From: Smittium mucronatum
Taxonomy: Eukaryota > Kickxellomycota > Harpellomycetes > Harpellales > Legeriomycetaceae
NCBI GenBank assembly: GCA_001953115.1
Contig: LSSL01003473.1
Location: 1-17,874, forward strand
Reading direction: 5' to 3'
Length of the DNA: 17,874 nucleotides
Shown: in pieces, positions 1-17,423 of the stretch
Position numbering within the stretch: position 1 is the stretch's first letter
Layout: each line of letters starts with the position of its first letter
Translations under genes and position numbers: made by a program
Notes under the pieces: model-generated
What the model was told of the DNA's origin: nothing
Seen by the model: the letters and a program-made list of their open reading frames with translations, nothing else
Database searches by the model: none

Positions 1-286
1 AGGTTACGTGCAGTCATGAATTAAGCTCTTTGTCAATGAACTGTTGTTCATTGAAGCTATTGAGCTCCTAGTCAGAGCCTACTTCTAACAGGATTAATAA
101 AATTAGGCTCCTACCCAAACGTGGGTTTGATCAACATGGCTTTCCTACAAATAGCTGTTAGACGCTGAGATCCGTCTGACTGTCGAACGCTGGACTTGTG
201 CACTAGACTATGTCTCAGCTGTGCTAAACGATCGGTTCCTCCTGTTTCTAGATGGTCCTCCTCTGGAATCGCTGTCCTCCGAATCG

Positions 287-372
287 CTGTGCGCTATCTC
301 CACTACTCCCAACCAAGAATAGTGCAACGCTGTGCGCTGTCTCCACTACTTCCAACCAAAAATAGTACAACG
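287..372. repeat. 43-bp tandem duplication inside copy A
   Basis: Units 287-329 and 330-372 are 43 bp each and differ at only four positions. Copies B and C carry a single unit, so the duplication arose within copy A or its private lineage. Because 43 is not a multiple of three, it shifts the short reading frame present in this part of the element. A smaller echo (AATCGCTGT at 282-290 and 267-275) lies next to it. Confidence 0.9.
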
Positions 373-376
373 CTGC

Positions 377-455
377 GTGAAATTTTAGTCTAGTGTACTT
401 CGAAAAGTACACTATTAAGCCCCTAAACCACGGCAAGGTATTTCACTCTTAGGGG
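377..455 (-). ncRNA. HDV-like self-cleaving ribozyme at 5' end of copy A
   Basis: Seen on the minus strand, reading from 455 down, every element of the HDV-like double pseudoknot is present and contiguous. P1 is CCCCUAA (449-455) with UUAGGGG (420-426), 7 bp. J1/2 is GA (447-448). P2 is GUGAAAU (440-446) with AUUUCAC (377-383), 7 bp. P3 is ACC (437-439) with GGU (427-429) around a 7-nt loop L3 (430-436). J1.1/4 is CUUAA (415-419). P4 is a perfect 10-bp stem capped by UUCG (391-414). J4/2 is GACUAAA (384-390); its C at 388 is the expected catalytic cytosine in the C-N-R-A motif. Predicted cleavage is just 5' of P1, at the element boundary. Caveats: P1.1 is weak (one G-C pair plus U-U), and the first base is C rather than the usual G, although L1Tc ribozymes also begin with C. 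Activity is inferred, not shown. Confidence 0.85.
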
Positions 456-6111: not shown

Positions 6112-6190
6112 CCCCTAAGATTGAAATACCCTGCCATGGTTTAGGGGCTTAATAGCGTAGTTTTCGAAGTATACTAGACTAAAATTTCAC
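6112..6190 (+). ncRNA. HDV-like self-cleaving ribozyme at 5' end of copy B
   Basis: Same fold as in copy A. P1 is CCCCUAA (6112-6118) with UUAGGGG (6141-6147), perfect. J1/2 is GA. P2 is UUGAAAU (6121-6127) with AUUUCAC (6184-6190), 6 of 7 pairs. P3 is ACC (6128-6130) with GGU (6138-6140), loop CUGCCAU. P4 is 6153-6176 with a UUCG loop, 8 of 10 pairs including one wobble. J4/2 is GACUAAA (6177-6183), with the expected catalytic C at 6179. The total length, 79 nt, equals that of copy A. The target-site duplication ends at the predicted cleavage site, so the ribozyme would define the exact 5' end of the retroposon RNA. P4 mismatches suggest some decay; activity of this copy is uncertain. Confidence 0.82.
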
Positions 6191-6220
6191 GCAGCGTTTT
6201 ACTATTCTTGGTTGGGAGTA

Positions 6221-6316
6221 ATGGAGACAGTGCACAGCGATTCGGAGAACAGATATTCCAGAGAAGGGCCATCTAGAAACAGGAGGAACCGATCGTTTAG
6301 CACGGCTGAGACATAG
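6221..6316 (+). CDS. Short Arg/Ser-rich open frame inside retroposon B (31 codons)
   Basis: An ATG in a favourable context (A at -3, G at +4) opens a 31-codon frame beginning METVHSDSENRYSREG and ending at TAG 6314-6316. Copy C keeps the ATG (9105-9107) and the same first two dozen codons (METAHSDSE...), then runs into another frame after a 1-base deletion. Copy A has GTG in place of the ATG and is frameshifted by its duplication. I do not recognise the product, and it may not be translated. Conservation could simply reflect common descent of the repeat copies. It is noted because it is the only shared start codon in a sensible position after the ribozyme. Confidence 0.2.
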   Translation: METVHSDSENRYSREGPSRNRRNRSFSTAET

Positions 6317-6711
6317 TCTAGTGCACAGGTCTAGCGTTTGACAGTCAGACGGATCTCAGCGTCTAACAGCTATAAGTAGGAAAGCCATGTCAATCAATCC
6401 TACGTTTGGGTAGGAACCTAATTTTATTAATCCTGTTAGAATTAGTCTCTGACTAGGAGCTCATTGACACCAATGAACCATTTTTCATCGACAAAGAGCT
6501 TAATTCTTGACTACGTGTAACCTCAGTCATCCAGCCTACTTGGAGCAATGCCAGGGGGGGGTCTTTCTTTTATAGATCGTACCATTTTCCTGTAGGTACG
6601 CAGCTGGTAGCCCGGTAGAGGAAATTATTTTAATTACGACAATATTCTTTTCTATATGCCTTTTTCATTTTTTCATTCTTTTTAATATAGTTTTTAATGA
6701 CGTTATCTTAA

Positions 6712-6739
6712 AATAAAATTCCGTGATACAAAAAAAAAA
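6712..6739 (+). other. Polyadenylation signal and poly(A) tail of retroposon B
   Basis: AATAAA at 6712-6717 is followed 12 bases later by ten A residues (6730-6739), directly abutting the target-site duplication. Copy C keeps the same signal (TTTATT on the plus strand at 8616-8621) and tail (eight T at 8596-8603). This indicates that the mobilised RNA was an RNA polymerase II transcript cleaved and polyadenylated in the normal way. Confidence 0.8.
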
Positions 6740-6754
6740 GAGTCATTTACACAT
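6740..6754. repeat. Target-site duplication, right flank of retroposon B
   Basis: This is an exact copy of 6097-6111 lying directly after the poly(A) tail of retroposon B. On the minus strand it ends the upstream half of the gag-protease frame (...ELMKLCVND), and the other copy restarts it. Confidence 0.9.
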
Positions 6755-8586: not shown

Positions 8587-8595
8587 CATAAAGAG
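8587..8595. repeat. Target-site duplication, left flank of retroposon C
   Basis: CATAAAGAG at 8587-8595 is repeated exactly at 9217-9225. The two copies bracket retroposon C: the left one touches its poly(T) end, the right one is one base from its ribozyme end. Confidence 0.82.
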
Positions 8596-9215
8596 TTTTT
8601 TTTGTATCACGAAATTTTATTGTAAGATAATGCAATTAAAAGCTATACTAAAAAAATATGAAAAAAGGAAATATATATATAAAGGGCTGTTATGCTAACC
8701 AAAACCAGCCCCTCTGTAGGAGTATTGGCAATATACCTAATGGAAAAGGGTGCAATCTTAATACCGAAAGACACCCCTGACATTGCTTCAAGTAGGTGTA
8801 TGACTGAGGTTACATGCAGTCAAGAATTAAGCTCTTTTTCAACGAAATATAGTTTATTGAAGCTACCGAGCTCCTAGTTAGAGCCTTATTCTAACGGGAT
8901 AGATAAAATTAGGTTCCTATCCAATCGTAGGATTGATCAGCATATCTTCCCTACAATAGCTGTTAGATGCTGAGATCCGTCAGACTATCAAACGCTGAAC
9001 TTTTGCAATAGAAGATGTCTCAGCCGTGCTAAAGATCGGTTCCTTCTGTTTCTAGATAGTCCTTCTCTGGAATAAAAGTCTTCTGAATCGCTGTGCGCTG
9101 TCTCCATTACTCTCAACCAAAAATAGTACAACTTTGTGTGAAATTTTAGTTTATAGTACTTCGAAAAGTACACTGTTAAGCCTCTAAACCACAGCGATAT
9201 TTTCACTCATCGGGG
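8596..9215 (-). mobile_element. Retroposon copy C, full length
   Basis: A 620-bp complete copy on the minus strand. It runs from the ribozyme at 9138-9215 to an AATAAA signal (8616-8621) and an eight-base poly(A) tail (8596-8603). The 9-bp duplication CATAAAGAG lies on both sides. It aligns with copy B from end to end, including the low-GC 3' quarter, and with copy A over all that is visible. It is the most diverged copy: ribozyme P1 and P4 carry several mismatches, and single-base indels break the short internal frame. It lies about 390 bp upstream of the gag start of the decayed Ty3/gypsy-type gene, in the same orientation. B and C therefore form a 3.1-kb inverted pair, which I read as two independent insertions. 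Confidence 0.87.
9138..9215 (-). ncRNA. HDV-like ribozyme at 5' end of copy C, partly decayed
   Basis: The same parts occur in the same order on the minus strand. P1 is CCCCGAU (9209-9215) opposite UUAGAGG (9181-9187), with three mismatches. J1/2 is GA (9207-9208). P2 is GUGAAA with UUUCAC, 6 bp. P3 is AUC (9196-9198) with GGU (9188-9190), around a 5-nt loop. P4 is 9152-9175 with a UUCG loop and an intact 6-bp inner stem. J4/2 is AACUAAA (9145-9151), with the catalytic-type C at 9149 kept. The damaged P1 makes self-cleavage unlikely today, so this is best seen as a relic. Confidence 0.65.
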
Positions 9216-9216
9216 A

Positions 9217-9225
9217 CATAAAGAG
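9217..9225. repeat. Target-site duplication, right flank of retroposon C
   Basis: This is the exact partner of 8587-8595 (CATAAAGAG). The single A at 9216 between it and the element corresponds to a T in front of the CCCC start on the element strand. All three copies have that T, so it may be the true first base of the element. Confidence 0.82.
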
Positions 9226-12729: not shown

Positions 12730-12755
12730 GTGAAAATTTTTTAAAAAAATTTCAC
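12730..12755. repeat. 26-bp near-perfect palindrome at the 3' edge of the LINE remnant
   Basis: Two 13-bp arms (12730-12742 and 12743-12755) are complementary except at one position, with no loop. It overlaps the stop codon of the LINE reading frame on the minus strand (TGA, 12752-12754). In DNA this rich in A and T it may be accidental; it could also mark the start of the element's 3' untranslated region. Confidence 0.4.
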
Positions 12756-13500
12756 TCTACTCCCCTCTGCCGCTCTAGTAGCTCCATACCTCGAGGGCAT
12801 TTGTTCAAAGGATCTGGTGAATCACTTAAACTCTGGAACTTAAGTGTTCGTTGCACGCGGATGCCAATCAGAAATTTGGCTGTTTCCAACACAAATTTTT
12901 GATCGGCGGTGTCAGCCTGTAGCTGACTTAAAGTATGTTTAGACTCCCCCCCAAGGAGTTTTCCAACTATCCCCAACCTAGATTCATTTAAATTAGAAAG
13001 ATGTTTTTTTATGTCTGAGCGGATCGGTGCAGATAAAAACCTGCCGATCGTCTCATTTTGCTGTAGTCACATCGAGAGCAATTTAATAAGATGTGGTTGA
13101 CAGTTTCAGGCACATCAATTTTGTAGAAGGGACAATTTTTTTTAAATTTTTCATCTAAAAATTTCATATTTGATAGTCGCTGGACGGTCGGAAAGGCTCA
13201 TATTCGCATTTTCCCGATGACCTGGAGGCCAAGTTTCAGGTCAGGGTACAGCAGCTGAAGATTCATCCAGTTTCGTTTTCTGCCGATTTATAGGTCCACC
13301 GTCCACTGGTTGATTTAAAACTGGTTATTTTTATTTTCCCTGTCGACAATTTTGATGGTGGTTTCACCTTTTGAATTTTGAACACAAATTTGTTTTATCC
13401 ATCTTGAGCTGCCGGTCACTCAGGTGGCCATTCTGGCTTTGATGGACGACTTAATGAGACCGGAATCCTTTTAATGATTATTGATGCAGAGATGGACGGT
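12752..13500 (-). pseudogene. LINE (non-LTR retrotransposon) ORF2 C-terminal fragment, decayed
   Basis: About 250 codons of the region downstream of the reverse-transcriptase domain can be read on the minus strand. One frame runs from 13500 to about 13012 and includes LYPDLKLGLQVIGKMR (near 13210-13255), AFPTVQRLSN and then CPFYKIDVPETVNHILLNC (13078-13134). This is the LINE C-terminal zinc motif C-x2-C-x(7-9)-H-x4-C, with the second Cys changed to Tyr (a one-base G-to-A change). A frameshift at an A run (13004-13010) leads into the last 75 codons, with VLETAKFLIGIRVQRTLK and a TGA at 12752-12754. In-frame stops at 13471, 13420, 13315, 13288, 13198 and 13009 mark it as dead. No reverse-transcriptase motif is left above 13500, so it is either 5'-truncated, as LINE copies often are, or eroded. 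It is less AT-rich than its surroundings. Confidence 0.85.
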
Positions 13501-16196: not shown

Positions 16197-17423
16197 ATGA
16201 AGACCGCTGTAGAATTGATTACTCCCTTTGTTGAAGATCCTCTTGAGTTCGTTCACTTTCAGCCAAATCGTCCAGGAAAGGCCATCGGATTCCTAGAAGG
16301 GGGTGAATCAATAAACTTTGATGAACTTCCTGATAAAAAGTTACCTCTTACTTTTACTCCACTTACCCAGAGAGGAGTCACCTTCAACAATAGGATATTC
16401 GTATCACCAATTCTTACCTATTCTTCTCAGGATGGTTTTTTGACTGACTGGCATGTAGCCCATTATGGAGGATTGTCTATGCATACTCCTGGAGGTATTA
16501 CTGTTGAGGCCACTGGGGTTACAGCACATGGAAGGGTTTCCATTAATTGTCCAGGAATTTGGAAAGATGAACAAATAGAATCGCACAGAAAGGTAGTGAG
16601 AGTTGTTAAAAGCAACAACGTAAGGATTGGTCTTCAATTGGTTCATTCGGGGAGGAAAGGGTCTGGTCTGCCTATTTGGGAGTCTAGTAAGGGGATCGCT
16701 CATAGCTCGATAGGGGGTTGGACAGATGAAGTCTATGGCCCGACCTCCGAAGCCTTTGACGAAATATCTGCTGATACAAAGGAGCTTACAATCTCACAGA
16801 TTGAGAGGATCAAAGAAGCCTACGTTGATGCTGCTATCAGGGCTGATTTAGCCGGTTATGACTATCTTGAAATTCATGCAGCACATGTATATCTTCTTTC
16901 TTCATTCCTTAGCCCGATATCAAATACTAGAAAGGATATTTATGGAGGGTCCTTTGATAACAGAGTCAGATTCCTAATAGAGGTTGTAGAAAGAGTCAGA
17001 AATGTTTTCCCAGAAAATAAGCCCATTTGGGTTAGGTTATCTTGTAATGAATGGTTCGAAGGTGGTTGGGATATCGAAGATTCAGTTAGATTAGCAAGAT
17101 TGTTGAAAGATATTGGAGTAGATCTTGTTGATTGTAGTTCAGGGGGGATGTCAAATAGAGAAGTGGTCGAGTACAGACCTCTTTTCCAAGTATCTTTTGC
17201 TCAGCAAGTTAGAGAAAGAGCCGGGGTTCAAACTGGTGCAGTGGGAATAATAACCAAACCTTCGGAGATAGAAGAAATTCTACAATTAGGACAAAGCGAT
17301 ATTGTTTCCCTCGGCAGACAGTTTTTATTGGAGCCATCATTCGTTAAAAGAGCTGCAGTGGAGTTGGGTGTAGATTTGAGCTACCCCAACCAGTATTTGT
17401 ACGCGAAAAGCTTGATAGACTAG
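16197..17423 (+). CDS. NADH:flavin oxidoreductase / old yellow enzyme family (YqjM-like)
   Basis: A complete 408-residue, intronless protein. The family is an FMN-bound TIM barrel that uses NAD(P)H to reduce activated C=C bonds such as enones. After a ~50-residue N-terminal extension typical of fungal members, the barrel starts at LTFTPLTQRGVTFNNRI (51-67). Visible family residues are: Tyr75; Gln147 and His150 (QLVH); Arg153-Lys154 (SGRK); His227 and His230 with the proton-donor Tyr232 (HAAHVY); FLSP-SNTRKDIYGGS (237-252); Arg280; DCSSGG (312-317); TGAVG (346-350); and GR (373-374). Two features are odd. The Cys that tunes the flavin in YqjM (Cys26) is Leu73 (SPILTYSS), and the C-terminal arginine finger (QYER in YqjM) reads QYLY (399-402). 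No signal peptide is seen, so it is probably cytosolic. The ATG is preceded by an in-frame stop at 16179-16181. The natural substrate is unknown. Confidence 0.93.
   Translation: MKTAVELITPFVEDPLEFVHFQPNRPGKAIGFLEGGESINFDELPDKKLPLTFTPLTQRGVTFNNRIFVSPILTYSSQDGFLTDWHVAHYGGLSMHTPGGITVEATGVTAHGRVSINCPGIWKDEQIESHRKVVRVVKSNNVRIGLQLVHSGRKGSGLPIWESSKGIAHSSIGGWTDEVYGPTSEAFDEISADTKELTISQIERIKEAYVDAAIRADLAGYDYLEIHAAHVYLLSSFLSPISNTRKDIYGGSFDNRVRFLIEVVERVRNVFPENKPIWVRLSCNEWFEGGWDIEDSVRLARLLKDIGVDLVDCSSGGMSNREVVEYRPLFQVSFAQQVRERAGVQTGAVGIITKPSEIEEILQLGQSDIVSLGRQFLLEPSFVKRAAVELGVDLSYPNQYLYAKSLID

Follow-up and report, generated by a model that had tools for sequence, protein, structure and literature searches.

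Does the minus strand of positions 377-455 in contig LSSL01003473.1 of Smittium mucronatum encode an HDV-like self-cleaving ribozyme, and what would such a ribozyme be doing there? Smittium is a genus of insect-gut fungi of the Harpellales (Kickxellomycota), and the window, that is, the whole stretch of 17,874 nucleotides that was analysed, has a G+C content of 25.6% and a sole clear gene at 16197-17423, coding for an Old Yellow Enzyme-type NADPH dehydrogenase with its nearest named relatives in S. culicis (67% over the full length) and in S. mucronatum itself (a fragment, 91% over 69% of the query). Positions 12750-13499 form an island of 40-44% G+C between flanks of 14-26%, with no open frame of 80 codons, and are perhaps a decayed gene or a piece of a LINE. 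Regarding the segment in question, our results make it quite probable that a non-autonomous, non-coding retroposon of about 630 nt begins, at its 5' end, with an HDV-like self-cleaving ribozyme. This reading is supported by a structure score above those of 800 shuffles, by a nested part that coincides with the minimum-energy fold, by the improbability of helix P2, and by an element boundary located exactly at the first base of P1, C1.

The copy of the element that holds the segment is designated copy A, and the candidate ribozyme, its first 79 nt, is composed of the following parts:

377-455, minus strand: HDV-like ribozyme fold of copy A, equal to the family consensus over the first 79 nt
449-455, minus strand: 5' strand of P1, CCCCUAA; the element starts at base 455, designated C1
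440-446, minus strand: 5' strand of P2, GUGAAAU, from pairing and a shuffle test
427-439, minus strand: P3, ACC/GGU, with the 7-nt loop L3, UUGCCGU, from pairing and the minimum-energy fold
420-426, minus strand: 3' strand of P1, UUAGGGG, from helix pairing and the minimum-energy fold
415-419, minus strand: J1.1/4, CUUAA
391-414, minus strand: P4, 10 bp with a UUCG loop, from pairing and the minimum-energy fold
384-390, minus strand: J4/2, GACUAAA, in which C68 is window position 388
377-383, minus strand: 3' strand of P2, AUUUCAC, from pairing and a shuffle test

In element numbering, read along the minus strand from 455, P1 comprises 1-7/30-36, P2 10-16/73-79, P3 17-19/27-29 and P4 42-51/56-65, with GA as J1/2. 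The helices (7, 7, 3 and 10 bp, respectively) pair end to end, exactly as an earlier note on this DNA had claimed, and build the nested double pseudoknot of HDV-like ribozymes, in which P3 lies inside the P1/P2 arrangement and P4 outside. The J4/2 junction of HDV-like ribozymes displays a cytosine followed by purine-rich bases, and both are present in the GACUAAA of copy A, which contains the C-U-A-A previously noticed at this place; by analogy, C68 is presumed to be the catalytic cytosine, and C1 is predicted to be the first base after cleavage. C68 is kept in 34 of 37 copies, counting only those fetched without a pattern containing C68, and A67, A70 and A71 of J4/2 are invariant among 29 aligned copies. 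Shared variants occur at consensus positions 23, 66, 69 and 80, several of them in L3, in J4/2 or just 3' of P2, adjoining the presumed catalytic cytosine, and they may represent ribozyme versions differing in activity.

By inspection, P1.1 has at most one standard pair, since only G22-C37 is standard and U21/U38 is mismatched; this single pair, between C37 and G22 of L3, could then make up the whole of P1.1. A weak P1.1 and a cytosine as first base had been raised as caveats, and although both are seen, they have precedents in active trypanosomatid ribozymes (PMC4035085). The L1Tc-type ribozymes of these organisms are described as cleaving before C1, the mapped +1 base, and as departing from HDV and R2 both in P1, whose GC pairs are oriented differently, and in P1.1, which varies in the number and kind of its pairs among known examples; the same source calls earlier search rules for HDV-like ribozymes too restrictive (PMC4035085).

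Is this fold more than AT-rich DNA would offer by chance? The minimum-energy fold obtained with ViennaRNA, which admits no pseudoknots, consisted of exactly P1, P3 and P4, with both P2 strands left unpaired. This nested part alone (-21.7 kcal/mol, z -1.76) is not remarkable, because 11 of 200 shuffles folded at least as stably; the element body is of ordinary stability as well (z -1.1 in copy L005). A 7-bp P2 in the free segments appeared in 30 of 200,000 shuffles. Furthermore, a double-pseudoknot descriptor of HDV topology, with pairs weighted by rarity, accepted copy A with a score of 52, the best on either strand of the window, as compared with a maximum of 47.5 (mean 36.3, sd 2.4) in 800 dinucleotide shuffles of the window; the bounds of the descriptor were set after the fold was seen and had no validation on known ribozymes. 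The 7/7/3/10 reading totals 55.4, and other listed matches on both strands of the window reached 36.7 at most. With a cruder weighting the margin was thinner, copy A scoring 59 versus a maximum of 56 in 400 shuffles of the window, and among 20,000 shuffles of the 79 nt there were 25 with any match and none that reached 59. The reversed window was disregarded as a control, because the complement preserves all Watson-Crick pairs.

Chance complementarity in AT-rich DNA, fixed by the copying of one founder, would agree with the approach of the AT-rich shuffles to copy A in the crude score, with descriptor bounds chosen after the fact, and with the lack of covariation described below; we nevertheless judge it very improbable, since none of the 800 shuffled windows attained the score with rarity-weighted pairs, and the fold begins at the exact boundary of the element in 16 of 22 copies with duplicated flanks.

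The Rfam model RF00094 (HDV_ribozyme) has the helix plan P1, P2, P3 and P4, as in copy A, which differs from it in sequence, in its first base C and in its weak P1.1. The covariance-model check suggested in the earlier note gave no support: a scan of the window at lax thresholds (E up to 10) returned 5 chance-level matches, and a scan of 340-480 returned 2 (in copy A, E 1.2 and 6.6), none of them HDV, while RF00094 had no match in the whole genome (68 candidates scored). Such a match helps in detecting HDV-like ribozymes but does not define them.

Compensatory changes, which had been proposed as a further check, did not significantly exceed those of shuffles. Over 29 distinct rows pairs were kept at 94.8%, and the observed covariation equalled that of shuffles; in P4, among the first 100 listed of 481 matches, 91.0% were paired versus 91.1% when shuffled, with 2 double changes versus 3.5 expected; and over 55 copies there were 4 pair-keeping double changes versus 2.5 expected, which is not significant, one of the four (L093) probably lying in flanking DNA and two others (P1 U5-A32 to C-G in L018 and P4 A48-U59 to G-C in L096) looking truly compensatory, though isolated. 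Variation among 29 copies was 0.030 at paired versus 0.068 at unpaired sites (one-sided p=0.015; versus the element body p=0.08), and with 55 copies the deficit of changes at paired sites was not significant (p=0.16 and 0.41). Null covariation of this kind is expected in a young family whose copies decay apparently neutrally after insertion, and therefore these tests neither support nor refute the fold. Likewise, non-compensatory changes in more copies, which the earlier note would have counted as a refutation, are not decisive against it.

The window holds three copies of the element, which is polyadenylated:

1-455, minus strand: retroposon copy A, lacking its 3' end, which falls beyond the contig start
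6097-6111, plus strand: 5' target-site duplication of copy B, GAGTCATTTACACAT
6112-6739, plus strand: retroposon copy B, complete, with poly(A) at 6730-6739
6740-6754, plus strand: 3' target-site duplication of copy B
8596-9215, minus strand: retroposon copy C, about 16% from the consensus
8587-8595 and 9217-9225: 9-nt duplication of copy C, with one extra base before C1

Copies B and C, which diverge from the consensus by 10.7% and 16.1%, respectively, had been said to keep the plan of copy A. For copy B this stands in part, as P1 is kept and one P2 and two P4 pairs are lost; copy C is decayed, retaining 4 of the 7 pairs of P1, with P2 hit by a deletion and P3 broken. The copies fetched by DNA search, copy B apart, diverge by 2.4-6.2%.

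The family is numerous. A DNA search of the genome (a 73.8-Mb assembly in 2957 contigs) with the element gave at least 43 matches, with the best 40 of 2540 candidates scored; a 35-nt start pattern (7 N positions, up to 3 mismatches) was present at 851 genomic places and its reversed control at 0, and a 35-nt tail pattern (up to 2 mismatches) was present at 884, with 0 for the control. An 18-nt pattern spanning P4 to the end of the 3' strand of P2 had 504 exact matches, 222 of which also matched a pattern 17 places longer, and all 20 loci fetched among those failing the longer pattern turned out to be diverged or internally duplicated family copies. Among the first 100 listed P4 matches, from a search pattern that admitted only these four variants in J4/2, GACUA accounted for 41, GACCA for 36, AACUA for 21 and AACCA for 2, and to judge from these sequences, subfamilies appear to differ in J4/2. 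Additionally, consensus 81-128, just 3' of the candidate ribozyme, is tandemly duplicated in some copies, namely at window positions 285-375 and in L066, L078, L079, L092, L098, L105 and L109, which suggests a subfamily with a repeated unit.

Insertion sites were compared in a sample of 35 copies, comprising 28 of the 30 DNA-search loci (L016 being a duplicate of L015, and L001 being copy B), copies B and C, and five later copies; removal of L024 and L008, located at contig ends, left 33. A shared flank of at least 8 nt was found in 22 of these 33 copies and ended directly before the element in 18 of the 22, with 16 of the 18 starting at C1 of P1, which bears out the earlier proposal that the fold sits exactly where a polyadenylated retroposon begins. 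When flanks were exchanged between copies as a control, 63 of 1056 pairings had a shared stretch of at least 8 nt, and 5 had at least 10 nt. Among the 22, the duplications of L025 and L027 are A-rich and could be due to chance, and among the 11 copies without a duplication, L026 and L066 have an N in a flank. Furthermore, 12 of 20 tail-selected loci were truncated at the 5' end, and several truncated copies show duplications at the truncated end, for which no control was run. LINE-type target-primed reverse transcription typically leaves poly(A), duplications that vary from copy to copy, and 5' truncation; with duplications, poly(A), truncations and no coding capacity all present, the element has the features of a non-autonomous retroposon inserted by this route.

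An exact 5' end could also have been obtained without self-cleavage. A fold that resembles HDV and does not cleave would be in keeping with the weak P1.1 and the lack of an Rfam HDV match, and a blocked exonuclease would likewise give a fixed 5' end; however, an exonuclease block usually leaves some bases upstream of the fold, here the element begins on the opening base of P1, and in helix order, in the sizes of its junctions and in its J4/2 cytosine the fold agrees with HDV-like ribozymes, for which reasons we regard this explanation as unlikely. We give even less credence to the 5' end being a transcription start site, with the fold as a remnant or as a structure with a promoter or translation function. 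Autonomous transcription would indeed yield exact 5' ends, and trypanosomatid Pr77 has been described as a promoter, but four HDV-type helices at the very start would be left unexplained, and no notable protein is encoded by the element.

The consensus contains AATAAA at 602-607, 12 nt upstream of the poly(A), which starts at 620, has no stop-free frame above 95 codons, and displays T-runs at 550-585 that, from their sequence, would end polymerase III transcription. An A-box-like motif at 187 and a B-box-like motif at 281 are present, either of which would start transcription downstream of the candidate ribozyme. A tRNA search of the window copies found none, and Rfam found no families in them beyond the two chance-level matches in copy A. 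Given the lack of tRNA or Rfam matches and the internal T-runs, the element does not qualify as a strict SINE, which would descend from tRNA, 5S or 7SL RNA and contain a polymerase III promoter within its sequence.

A LINE helper or parent was sought among 151 RVT_1 matches, of which 30, including LINEs and LTR elements, were taken as loci and each compared with the element. The ribozyme covariance model was run on 29 of the 30 (L057 being left out), and the descriptor on all 30 and on 27 further loci; seven longer LINE stretches were also compared and scanned with the descriptor, and open frames were listed for four of them. L081, which we take to be an L1-like LINE, has RVT_1 and zf-RVT domains and ends in a short, polyadenylated 3' region of its own; its 5' end is cut by the contig, and three 5' regions of its family were read. 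Among the loci sampled (the 30 RVT_1 loci, the seven LINE stretches and the three LINE 5' regions), no ribozyme, no tail of the element and only chance-length shared sequence were found, a minority of the LINE families having been read to their ends, and no ends shared with an autonomous LINE were seen in the sampled RVT_1 loci or in 20 ribozyme and 20 tail loci. The best descriptor score outside the family was 46.0 (in 165 kb), below the shuffle maximum of 47.5. Beside a LINE frame, locus L084 (C2122, plus strand) carries at 70-1233 a 387-aa frame with a geminivirus-type Rep catalytic domain (PF00799, E 4e-18), which may come from an endogenised CRESS-DNA virus or belong to a mobile element that carries Rep.

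How would a ribozyme-headed element propagate? In the mechanism that we propose, RNA polymerase II would transcribe the element, probably within longer host transcripts; the ribozyme would cut just 5' of C1, with the J4/2 cytosine in the role that it has in other HDV-like ribozymes, and would thereby set the 5' end, and the AATAAA seen in the consensus would set the 3' end. A LINE reverse transcriptase would insert the RNA by target-primed reverse transcription, as the duplications, poly(A) and 5' truncations suggest, and new copies, bearing the ribozyme, could be released from any transcript with a sense insertion.

Sequence and structure thus uphold the ribozyme interpretation, under which the element would work like the ribozyme-headed short elements NARTc or SIDE; trypanosomatid and R2-type short elements carry tested ribozymes at the corresponding position. 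Pr77 of the trypanosomatid L1Tc, NARTc and SIDER elements is similarly an HDV-like fold of about 80 nt, heading LINEs and LINE-type short elements, with C at +1, from which a C-to-G orientation of P1 as in copy A is inferred; as described, it differs in being a hallmark common to autonomous LINEs and also a promoter (PMC4035085), whereas the Smittium element has a fungal host and no ribozyme-bearing LINE among the loci sampled. The R2 SIDE and R2/R1 SIDE of Drosophila are also short and non-coding, and are said to be processed from co-transcripts, not transcribed by polymerase III, and to need nothing beyond an HDV-like ribozyme at the 5' end and a 3' end to which a LINE machinery binds (PMC3414825). 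SIDEs are derivatives of R2/R1 located in 28S genes (PMC3414825); conversely, copies of the Smittium element are scattered among many contigs, their duplications vary, they carry poly(A), and no relation to a LINE was seen in the loci sampled. Retrozymes are likewise non-autonomous retroposons relying on a ribozyme, but they use hammerhead ribozymes and spread through circular RNA (PMC7761336), unlike the single 5' HDV-like ribozyme and linear polyadenylated copies seen here. That review lists R2 and other LINEs as bearers of HDV-like ribozymes and RTE as bearing twister, with fungi unmentioned in its main text (PMC7761336), and hammerhead ribozymes have been reported in fungi (PMC3088659).

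A literature search limited in extent found no fungal HDV-like retroposon. We know of none in print. On a more far-reaching proposal, which we put forward only tentatively and somewhat doubt, this would be the first such fungal family: a promoterless retroposon, not derived from a LINE, that acquired an HDV-like ribozyme by itself and has this ribozyme and a polyadenylation signal as its whole processing apparatus, with host transcripts across sense insertions yielding the copies.

If the ribozyme reading is true, ribozyme-headed retroposons would extend from animals and trypanosomes into early-diverging fungi, which would suggest that a short element can keep such a ribozyme with no evident LINE parent; it would also provide a second natural group combining a first base C with a minimal P1.1, and lead to broader search rules for HDV-like ribozymes. 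With some 850 alignable copies of one ribozyme, the family constitutes a good case for measuring how ribozyme activity controls retroposition. The true copy number may be higher, as the family probably breaks the assembly, because 22 of the first 100 listed start-pattern copies lie within 600 bases of a contig start (for example, C37:497-531, C43:521-555 and C66:527-561).
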